The position numbers and the translations under genes are program-made. Under the pieces are notes generated by a model. That model did not search any database, had not been told where the DNA came from, and worked only from the letters and a program-made list of their open reading frames with translations. Positions 18,069-54,594 of a DNA stretch of 64,000 nucleotides are shown piece by piece. How positions within the stretch are numbered: the first letter of the stretch is position 1; every line of letters starts with the position of its first letter. Source of the stretch: Phascolarctobacterium sp. ET69 (GTDB lineage Bacteria > Bacillota > Negativicutes > Acidaminococcales > Acidaminococcaceae); NCBI RefSeq assembly GCF_023336935.1, contig NZ_JAMBLR010000002.1, positions 1-64,000 of the forward strand, read 5' to 3'.

Positions 18069-18078
18069 TATTATAAAT

Positions 18079-47387: not shown

Positions 47388-47424
47388 TAAAATCCCGGAC
47401 AGTTTGCCTGCCCGGGATTTTTGT
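47388..47424 (+). terminator. Terminator after the ABC ATPase gene
   Basis: AAATCCCGG pairs with CCGGGATTT around a long loop with additional CAG/CTG pairing and is followed by a T-run. Confidence 0.8.
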
Positions 47425-50766: not shown

Positions 50767-51267
50767 ATGTTGAAATTAACCGGCAAAAAATTAACCGCTC
50801 TTGCAGCAGCAGCTCTCACCACCTTAACCATTTCCGCAACTGCTTTCGCAGCAGCCTTCACCTCGGCGGATGCGCAGTCCATGGCAGCAAAACTTGTACC
50901 GGCAAGCGCAACCCATGTGGCTACCAAAGAAGATTTCAATGAATATGAATTCAAATTCTTCGACAACGGTACCGCAACTTCCTACGAAGTAGAAATCAGC
51001 AAACTTACCCAGTCTGTAAAAGAATATAAAATGGAAGCACGCACCATCCTTGGCAGCAGAAATATTGTACTGAGCGCGGCTGACGCACAGGCTGTAGTTA
51101 CCAAAGAATATCCCAACGCCAGCTTCCACAAAGTAAAACTCGATATGGACGACGGCCTGTATGAATATGAACTCAAATTCACCACTCCCGAACTCCGCGG
51201 CGAAATGGTGCTGAACCCCGAAACCGGCGCTGTAATTGAAAAAGAACTGCGCTACAACGTAAGATAA
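50767..51267 (+). CDS. Secreted protein with two PepSY domains
   Basis: The 166-residue protein has a signal peptide ending near AFAA (about residue 28). Two PepSY-like repeats follow: FTSADAQSMAAKLVPASAT... and LSAADAQAVVTKEYPNASFH, each ending in a strand with YEYELKF or YEFKFF wording. PepSY domains occur in periplasmic proteins that inhibit or stabilise peptidases and in proteins tied to two-component systems. AAAGGAGG precedes the ATG. It is divergent from the response-regulator gene and ends in a strong terminator. Confidence 0.88.
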   Translation: MLKLTGKKLTALAAAALTTLTISATAFAAAFTSADAQSMAAKLVPASATHVATKEDFNEYEFKFFDNGTATSYEVEISKLTQSVKEYKMEARTILGSRNIVLSAADAQAVVTKEYPNASFHKVKLDMDDGLYEYELKFTTPELRGEMVLNPETGAVIEKELRYNVR

Positions 51268-51285: not shown

Positions 51286-51320
51286 AAAGCCTGCACGCAT
51301 TGTGCAGGCTTTATTTTTGC
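51286..51320 (+). terminator. Terminator after the PepSY gene
   Basis: A perfect 11-base stem AAAGCCTGCAC/GTGCAGGCTTT with a five-base loop is followed by ATTTTTG. Confidence 0.92.
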
Positions 51321-52292: not shown

Positions 52293-52316
52293 TAAGTGTA
52301 ACAATGCTTACACTTA
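52293..52316. promoter_or_regulatory. Nine-base-arm dyad upstream of the autotransporter promoter
   Basis: TAAGTGTAA, six bases, then TTACACTTA form a perfect inverted repeat typical of a dimeric regulator site, 41 bases upstream of the -35 of the autotransporter promoter. The surrounding purC-autotransporter gap is very AT-rich and otherwise featureless from about 52132 to 52290. Confidence 0.55.
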
Positions 52317-52357
52317 ACGGCTTTTAAAAATATAATTTTTAAAATATTGCAAAAAAT

Positions 52358-52386
52358 TTGCTTTTTATAAAAATATAAGGTATAAT
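52358..52386 (+). promoter_or_regulatory. Autotransporter gene promoter
   Basis: TTGCTT (52358-52363), a 17-base spacer and TATAAT (52381-52386) would start transcription near 52393 and give a leader of about 120 bases. Confidence 0.65.
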
Positions 52387-52403
52387 TAAAACATAAGCAG
52401 AGG

Positions 52404-52448
52404 ATGCTTTACAATTTAATAAAACACTTAGTCGGACATATTTTTTAA
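52404..52448 (+). CDS. Possible 14-codon leader peptide
   Basis: ATG 52404 opens MLYNLIKHLVGHIF, and its TAA stop is three bases before the terminator stem. The upstream GAGG is too close to the ATG for good initiation, so translation is doubtful. Confidence 0.2.
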   Translation: MLYNLIKHLVGHIF

Positions 52449-52450
52449 TT

Positions 52451-52492
52451 AAGACATTTCCTTCAAAGTAAAAGAAGGAAATGTCTTTTTTT
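52451..52492 (+). terminator. Strong terminator in the autotransporter leader
   Basis: A perfect 14-base stem AAGACATTTCCTTC/GAAGGAAATGTCTT with a nine-base loop is followed by a run of Ts. It ends only about 10 bases before the ribosome-binding site GGAGG (52502-52506). No plus-strand gene lies upstream for it to terminate. Confidence 0.9.
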
Positions 52493-52512
52493 GTTTTATA
52501 TGGAGGTTTAAC

Positions 52513-54594
52513 ATGAGAAAATCAGCAAAATACTTTTTAAATAACAACGGCAAAAAATTACTGGCAGCATCCGTAATGTCATTGCTTTTGTCAGGCGCTG
52601 CCCAGCCGGTGCTGGCTGCAAGCGCAGAAATTTTAGACGGTACGGCCAATGATAAATATGCTCAGGTAAACTCCGGCGATATTTACGGAACTGTTTATGG
52701 TGTGCGTAATGATGCCGATGCTTCCGGCGGTACAATTAAAATGAATGAAGGCGCCGCATTTAACTTGTACGGAGGGCTCAGTTTTAACAAAAATGAGGCC
52801 AAGGCTGATAATAATGTTGTTACTATAAACAACGGCAAAGTTGTATTTGCTGTTTACGGCGGGCAGGCACAAGGGCATGATGCCGATGCTTCGGGTAATA
52901 TCGTCAGCATAAGCGGCAGCAATTCTGAGTTAAGCTTTGAAGGAGGTGCTCATTCTGTTGCAGGCGGTTTTGCCCAAACATACAGCGCCAATACATCTGT
53001 AACGGCAAATAATAATGTGGTTGCGGTTACAGGCGGTTTATTAAAAGCAGGTATTGCCGGCGGTTATATATTGGGCAACCATAATGCAGCTTCAGTCCGG
53101 GGCGAAGCCAATGGCAATATTGTGTTTGTAGGCGGCAGTGCAAAGGTCAACGGCGATATTTATGGCGCTAATGCCGAATTTAAAACCGGTGATACCACTG
53201 CAACTATGAATAACAATATGGTAATTGTCAGCGGCAATGCCGATATCAGCAACGCGGCACTGCATGGCATAGGCAGCAGCGGGAGCAGCGGCGGTAAAAT
53301 CAGCGGCAGCGGCAACACGCTTGTAATTAACGGCTGGCACGGCAGCGTAAAAACTGTGGACGGTTTTAATAATGTGGTGTTTAAGGAAGTTGCCTGGCAG
53401 GATAACGGCAAAGTGCTGAACATAACCGACGGCGAAAACAGCAGCCTGAAGGATGCTGAAATTGACGCCAGCCATATCCATTTTGATGATGCCAGTGATA
53501 TTAATGATAATGACAGTATGATTTTAATACATGCTGAAAACGATGATAATGAACTGAGCAGCAGCAAAATACAATCCGGTAATTTTACGGCAGGTGTTGC
53601 CGTTGAGGGTGACGGCGAGGCGAAAGTGGAAAACGGTGACCTTGTTTACCAGATTAACGGCATACATGCGGCAAAACAAACAAAACTGGTTGCCGAAAAC
53701 AGAGCTGTGGCAGCGGCGTTTATAAACCAGGGCACGGATTTAATCAGTGACAGCCTGGACGCTTTAGGCCGTGATGACAGCTACGGCATTAAAACTTTTG
53801 CGGCAGTGCAGGGCAATCGCAGCAAATACGATGTGAACAGCGATATTAAAATCAACGGCTGGAGCACGATTGTCGGTGTAGGCAATGCCGATAAGTTCAG
53901 CGGCGGTGATGAGTTTGCCTGGGGCGTATTTTACGAAAACGGCAGCGGCAATTACCGTACCTACAATGAATTTAACGACGAGTTTTTCCGCGGCGACGGC
54001 AGCCTTGTATATAATGGCGGCGGTGTTGCTGCAAGGTATGAAAATGCGCACGGCGTTTATACCGAAGGCAGCCTGCGCGCAGGCATGCTGAAATCTGAGA
54101 TGGATAATGCCCTGCATGACGGCAGCGGTGCGGAATACGGCTATGACAGCAGCAGCGCTTATTACGGAGCGCATATCGGCATAGGGCAGGTTATACAGCT
54201 TAGTGATGACAGCAGTGTTGATGTGTATGGAAAGTTCTTCCATACTTATACGGAAGGAGATAATTTTAGTGTCGGCAATGATAAATTTGAGTTTGACAGT
54301 ATTAACAGTGACCGCCTGCGTATTGGCGCCAGGGTTACAGCCAACAAAGAAAATAAGTTCAGCACTTATTACGGCTTAGCGTATGAATATGAGTTTAACG
54401 GCAGTGCCGGGATGCGTGCTGCGGGAATGGAGGTGCCGGAACAGAGTTTACGCGGCAGCAGCTATATGGCAGAAGCAGGGTTAAATTATCAGCCTTCGGC
54501 AGACAGCCCGTGGAGCTTTGACCTGAATATGCGCGGCTATGCCGGTGAACGCCAGGGTGCAAGCTTTAACGTACAGGCAACATATACCTTTTAA
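52513..54594 (+). CDS. Autotransporter with outer-membrane beta-barrel
   Basis: The 693-residue type Va secretion protein has a long signal peptide (cleavage near VLAAS, about residue 36). The passenger (about 37-400) is made of repeated beta-helix-like units with the pattern NNxVxVxGG, interrupted by Ala/Asn-rich loops. A linker helix (about 395-425, KLVAENRAVAAAFINQGTDL) leads to a barrel domain of about 270 residues ending NVQATYTF with the terminal aromatic of outer-membrane proteins. No protease triad or RGD motif was seen, so adhesion or surface-layer function is a guess. The gene is direct evidence for an outer membrane. Confidence 0.93.
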   Translation: MRKSAKYFLNNNGKKLLAASVMSLLLSGAAQPVLAASAEILDGTANDKYAQVNSGDIYGTVYGVRNDADASGGTIKMNEGAAFNLYGGLSFNKNEAKADNNVVTINNGKVVFAVYGGQAQGHDADASGNIVSISGSNSELSFEGGAHSVAGGFAQTYSANTSVTANNNVVAVTGGLLKAGIAGGYILGNHNAASVRGEANGNIVFVGGSAKVNGDIYGANAEFKTGDTTATMNNNMVIVSGNADISNAALHGIGSSGSSGGKISGSGNTLVINGWHGSVKTVDGFNNVVFKEVAWQDNGKVLNITDGENSSLKDAEIDASHIHFDDASDINDNDSMILIHAENDDNELSSSKIQSGNFTAGVAVEGDGEAKVENGDLVYQINGIHAAKQTKLVAENRAVAAAFINQGTDLISDSLDALGRDDSYGIKTFAAVQGNRSKYDVNSDIKINGWSTIVGVGNADKFSGGDEFAWGVFYENGSGNYRTYNEFNDEFFRGDGSLVYNGGGVAARYENAHGVYTEGSLRAGMLKSEMDNALHDGSGAEYGYDSSSAYYGAHIGIGQVIQLSDDSSVDVYGKFFHTYTEGDNFSVGNDKFEFDSINSDRLRIGARVTANKENKFSTYYGLAYEYEFNGSAGMRAAGMEVPEQSLRGSSYMAEAGLNYQPSADSPWSFDLNMRGYAGERQGASFNVQATYTF

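Follow-up and report, generated by a model that had tools for sequence, protein, structure and literature searches.

The locus

The window, by which we mean the whole 64-kb stretch of DNA that was analysed, comes from a gut bacterium of the Acidaminococcaceae, a relative of Phascolarctobacterium, and carries on its plus strand a putative autotransporter gene that is preceded by a leader with a terminator hairpin in it. The features are as follows.

52358..52386, plus strand: promoter TTGCTT-17-TATAAT, both hexamers read directly, conserved in relatives
52393..52512, plus strand: leader (5' untranslated region) of about 120 bases, present in four congeneric genomes 5' of the orthologous gene
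52404..52448, plus strand: 14-codon frame, probably no gene (start codon missing in relatives, indels, Shine-Dalgarno abutting the ATG)
52426..52469, plus strand: conserved core, candidate antiterminator hairpin in which 52426-52444 pairs with 52451-52469
52451..52492, plus strand: intrinsic terminator, stem 52451-52464/52474-52487, T run 52486-52492, pairs kept in relatives
52502..52506, plus strand: Shine-Dalgarno sequence GGAGG of the autotransporter
52513..54594, plus strand: autotransporter with signal peptide, passenger, helix and a C-terminal beta-barrel ending in F (AlphaFold2, PDB matches)

The next gene upstream on the plus strand encodes a PepSY protein (50767-51267) and has its own terminator at 51286-51312. 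Between it and the leader lies purC on the minus strand, and the upstream region on the plus strand is antisense to purC. The sequence-only reading was thus right in its statement that nothing upstream on this strand needs a terminator.

The label "autotransporter" rests on the fold, and we use it with moderate confidence. Pfam and NCBIfam give no match for the protein. The AlphaFold2 model (m874a56b4f7d8, mean pLDDT 65.8, with nine sequences of the window and the locus as input) has, at moderate confidence, a beta-solenoid passenger at about residues 49-386, a long helix at 391-418 and several long strands at the C-terminus, and its best PDB matches are autotransporter beta-domains, EspP at the top and BrkA among the others. 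The order of the predicted parts is the classical (type Va) one, namely signal peptide, beta-helix passenger, helix plug and a 12-strand C-terminal barrel, the barrel being of low to moderate confidence. We add that this family is present in many copies in the genus and is still without a Pfam or NCBIfam match; its barrel is recognisable by the fold alone.

The promoter had been described as a good one. Its elements and spacing are indeed there (-35 TTGCTT at 52358-52363, a spacer of 17 bases, -10 TATAAT at 52381-52386) and the -10 is perfect, but the -35 is weak, since three of its six bases, and no more, agree with the consensus, and for this reason the site is absent from the list of a standard promoter scan. 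Both hexamers are kept in relatives (5/6 positions identical in the -35 and 6/6 in the -10) against 8/17 in the spacer between them. From the position of the promoter we would expect transcription to start near 52393, and the autotransporter start codon, ATG at 52513, gives the leader the length of about 120 bases that had been claimed for it. As a separate observation, the scan does list a second promoter-like site, CTTACA-18-TATAAT at 52307-52336 (10/12 consensus match), the -35 of which is overlapped by a perfect palindrome, TAAGTGTAA-N6-TTACACTTA at 52295-52318; the palindrome is operator-like in appearance and is not present in the four relatives.

The leader folds far better than chance (z = -3.84, matched by 0 of 200 shuffles). 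Its perfect 14-base terminator was already claimed and is present: a stem of 14 Watson-Crick pairs with a loop of 9 bases and a run of 7 T that ends just 5' of the autotransporter ribosome-binding site. At -18.3 kcal/mol the hairpin is comparable to the gene-end terminators within the window. With genes assigned by greedy calls, a same-strand gene precedes each of the other comparable intergenic terminators in the window except the one at 47389-47421, which has no gene assigned nearby. Two further candidates for leader terminators, at 18075 and 40332, were rejected, as on inspection both follow short or missed coding ends. From the hairpin to the autotransporter start codon the promoter scan lists no plus-strand promoter-like site, so the gene should be reachable by read-through only. 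Promoter, leader, a terminator before the coding start and no promoter after it make up the general layout of an attenuator that works through an intrinsic terminator.

Conservation among relatives

Four further congeneric genomes have the leader, at 71-74% identity, 5' of the orthologous gene that adjoins purC. In the trimmed alignment of our leader with the relatives (A2, used for pair conservation), 100% of the terminator pairs are retained in the four relatives, with one compensatory change from U-A to C-G (columns 79/106) and two one-sided changes, and the T run is conserved as well. The core stands out: 40 of its 44 bases are identical to the relatives. The part of the leader that precedes the core has 19/33 such bases, the intergenic region 58/170 and the gene, over its initial 60 nt, 25/60 (flanks of 34-57% identity). 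Since four of the five sequences compared hardly differ among themselves (9-17 differences in about 560), the comparison amounts to two independent observations.

A fifth congener (G005, L084:1-2786) has purC directly beside a Na+/H+ exchanger gene, and neither leader nor autotransporter is found there. Since the two are missing together, they appear to travel together. The junction is, in its own right, a clean presence/absence site. A covariance-model search of 59 genomes of the family gave no confident leader elsewhere. The one weak match (E 0.003, in one genome of the 59, G009; L082, 1501-1608) is a weakly similar terminator-bearing stretch between two genes, one apparently of the MBL-fold/RNase-J kind and the other, as it seems, methylisocitrate-lyase-like. 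We do not accept it as the same leader because it precedes a gene of another kind, and we regard it as a chance match or an unrelated terminator.

A possible competing fold in the conserved core

The core, which overlaps the 14-codon frame and is the most strongly conserved part of the leader, can form a second hairpin that would compete with the terminator. Its arms, ACUU.G..GGA.AU.UUUU and AAGA.AU.UCC..C.AAGU, form 14 pairs with symmetric mismatches and take in all of the terminator's 5' arm. If its 3' arm is left out of the folding, the same antiterminator hairpin is predicted in our sequence and in the relatives, that is in five genomes. In the antiterminator, ACUU is paired with the loop bases AAAGU; both pieces are conserved and neither has a role in the terminator. 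All 4 substitutions in the core fall at positions unpaired in this fold (p about 0.013 by position counting), and shuffles of the 5' arm reach the observed pairing and energy in only 0.55% of cases for our sequence and 0.1% for the relatives. The 14 pairs themselves are invariant, without a compensatory change, across five genomes of which two are effectively independent. A shorter hairpin, CUUAGU/ACUAAG (6 bp, 15-base loop), was also considered and set aside, as the longer antiterminator accounts for more of the conservation. The antiterminator is weak, about -4 kcal/mol against -17 to -18 for the terminator, and fold prediction on the growing chain has it give way to the terminator once the 3' arm appears.

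Leaders of paralogous autotransporters

The sequence-only reading proposed to look for the same hairpin before paralogous autotransporters. It is not shared: a hairpin of this type is absent before the other autotransporters of the genus and before two in another genus (G021). The paralogs have instead a second type of leader, in which a G-tract is followed by a hairpin; the Shine-Dalgarno sequence forms the 3' arm of this hairpin, and the ATG comes directly after it. Many copies have a TATAAT-type promoter. This type has no Rfam match. Two copies are in our own genome:

L097:627-739, near 142.0 kb: second-type leader C1
L132:1500-1619, near 82.8 kb: second-type leader C4
L098, L099, L101, L104, L106, L107, L112, L027-L030, L011, L135, L138: further second-type leaders

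Of the 7 Shine-Dalgarno bases, 6-7 are paired in the minimum-energy fold of each of the 16 copies. The G-tract is usually of 6-9 G, is interrupted in one copy and differs in length between copies; it is possible that this variation represents phase variation or a switch. The tract can also pair with the anti-Shine-Dalgarno arm, a helix that RNAalifold preferred when given the alignment, but slid controls reach similar scores, and a G-tract switch is hence only a proposal.

Presentation of the hypothesis

In our opinion the leader is, on balance, a transcription attenuator that acts on the autotransporter gene. Its sequence anatomy is that of an attenuator with termination as the default, and we infer that termination does happen here and is regulated. 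RNA polymerase would start near 52393, and the first structure to form in the nascent RNA would be the antiterminator hairpin (52426-52469), a weak one. In the default state it would give way to the terminator hairpin (52451-52487), about 13 kcal/mol more stable, and most transcripts would end in the T run near 52492 as an RNA of about 100 nt. A factor, be it a protein, a ligand or a small RNA, could hold the antiterminator or mask the 5' arm of the terminator and so allow read-through into the gene. Because the sister species keep both the terminator and the competing fold, an override of the stop signal is probably what turns the gene on. The sequence-only reading had offered either attenuation or a separate RNA of about 100 bases; attenuation remains the best reading and has gained comparative support, whereas the leader peptide suggested along with it is not supported.

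The small-RNA reading is the next to be considered. It takes the leader as a gene for a small RNA of about 100 nt, the core of which would pair with targets, while the hairpin would be simply its own terminator and the autotransporter would live on constitutive leakage. The leader has its own promoter, its strong terminator has a U tail suited to Hfq, an Hfq gene is present in the genome, and the conserved stretch lies directly before the terminator. Yet leader and autotransporter are absent jointly in the fifth congener, the genus has no copy of the core besides the orthologs and one match with 3 mismatches, and the conservation of the core also fits an antiterminator. We therefore consider it rather unlikely that the unit is mainly a small-RNA gene. 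Both can be true at once, by analogy with Listeria Rli51 (PMC11394854): given Hfq, the terminated product, possibly a by-product small RNA, may in addition have a trans-acting role like that of Rli51.

Another possibility is that a protein of antitermination, or a repressor, reads the sequence of the core itself and no antiterminator fold is needed. The core is highly conserved without covariation, and a precedent exists in the rimP-leader, which has a conserved terminator but no visible antiterminator (PMC2965389). On the other hand, the substitutions avoid the paired positions. The genome has no CAT_RBD antiterminator of the LicT/BglG type (PF03123; search controls were positive in four genomes), and no RfaH-type specialised NusG paralog was found next to its one NusG, which argues against two known protein antitermination systems. 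We judge this explanation to be distinctly unlikely.

Hairpins at the 5' end can protect mRNA, and the hairpin could be a mere stability or spacing element without regulated termination, but the T run is conserved, the energy equals that of gene-end terminators and there would be no need for a conserved competing fold, all of which makes this very improbable.

The 14-codon frame (ATG 52404, TAA 52446-52448) does lie near the stem as had been claimed, though it stops 2 bases before it and not 3. An SD-like AGAGG directly touches its ATG, and a spacing of 0 makes it a poor translation start. The ATG sits in a 6-base stretch that is missing from all four related species, none of which has any ATG in the leader 5' of the hairpin, and the frame is disrupted there by 6-base and 1-base indels. 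Leader-peptide attenuation would call for a conserved, translated short frame before the terminator, and this one is not kept. Hence, although a ribosome translating up to 2 bases from the stem would cover the 5' arm of the terminator, and although pil1 of Streptococcus gallolyticus is a known precedent for a surface structure (PMC3894217), the lost start codon, the indels, the SD touching the ATG and the absence of repeats leave the leader peptide with hardly any credibility.

Implications of the hypothesis

As read from its sequence, the attenuator-like leader is real and conserved. The kind of regulation is a known one; for genes of this kind the literature searched gave no report of it. 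On small RNA and Hfq in Negativicutes the literature search gave no paper, and nothing relevant was found on Phascolarctobacterium autotransporters. How surface autotransporters are controlled in the double-membraned Firmicutes (Negativicutes), which are common gut commensals, seems to be poorly known. If true, the conserved attenuator and the second leader class would mean on/off control of gut-commensal surface proteins at the level of RNA, and both leader types are compact elements, suited to simple reporters. A wider statement, that Acidaminococcaceae autotransporters are controlled by lineage-specific RNA switches outside Rfam, one transcriptional and one translational (at least 16 paralogs), each answering a cellular factor, is a speculation that we hold as possible but doubtful.

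Comparison with known systems

No gathering-level Rfam match (riboswitch, T-box or other leader) is found anywhere in the window, and at a relaxed threshold the leader gives only sub-threshold chance matches. The RAT antiterminators of LicT/SacY/BglG are interrupted hairpins that overlap the 5' arm of a terminator, and the candidate antiterminator is of the same build, but no RAT sequence is recognisable by eye and the genome is without a CAT_RBD protein. As in pil1, a premature stem-loop terminator lies directly 5' of the gene for a surface structure; pil1 has a leader peptide with repeats and undergoes phase variation, while here there are neither repeats nor a conserved leader peptide (PMC3894217). 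Like the rimP-leader and other 5' terminators, our leader has a conserved terminator and stem sequence, but gene family and sequence are different, and there is no Rfam match above threshold (PMC2965389). Another parallel in architecture is the Rli51-mpl leader of Listeria monocytogenes, the mechanism of which was tested by experiment (PMC11394854). It too is a 5' leader of about 120 nt before the gene of an exported protein, with a terminator and an alternative antiterminator fold, for which our leader has a candidate, and its short form is also a small RNA (PMC11394854), as the product of about 100 nt here may be. The sequences are unrelated, and the balance of the two folds is reversed: the antiterminator has the greater stability in Rli51 (PMC11394854), the terminator here.
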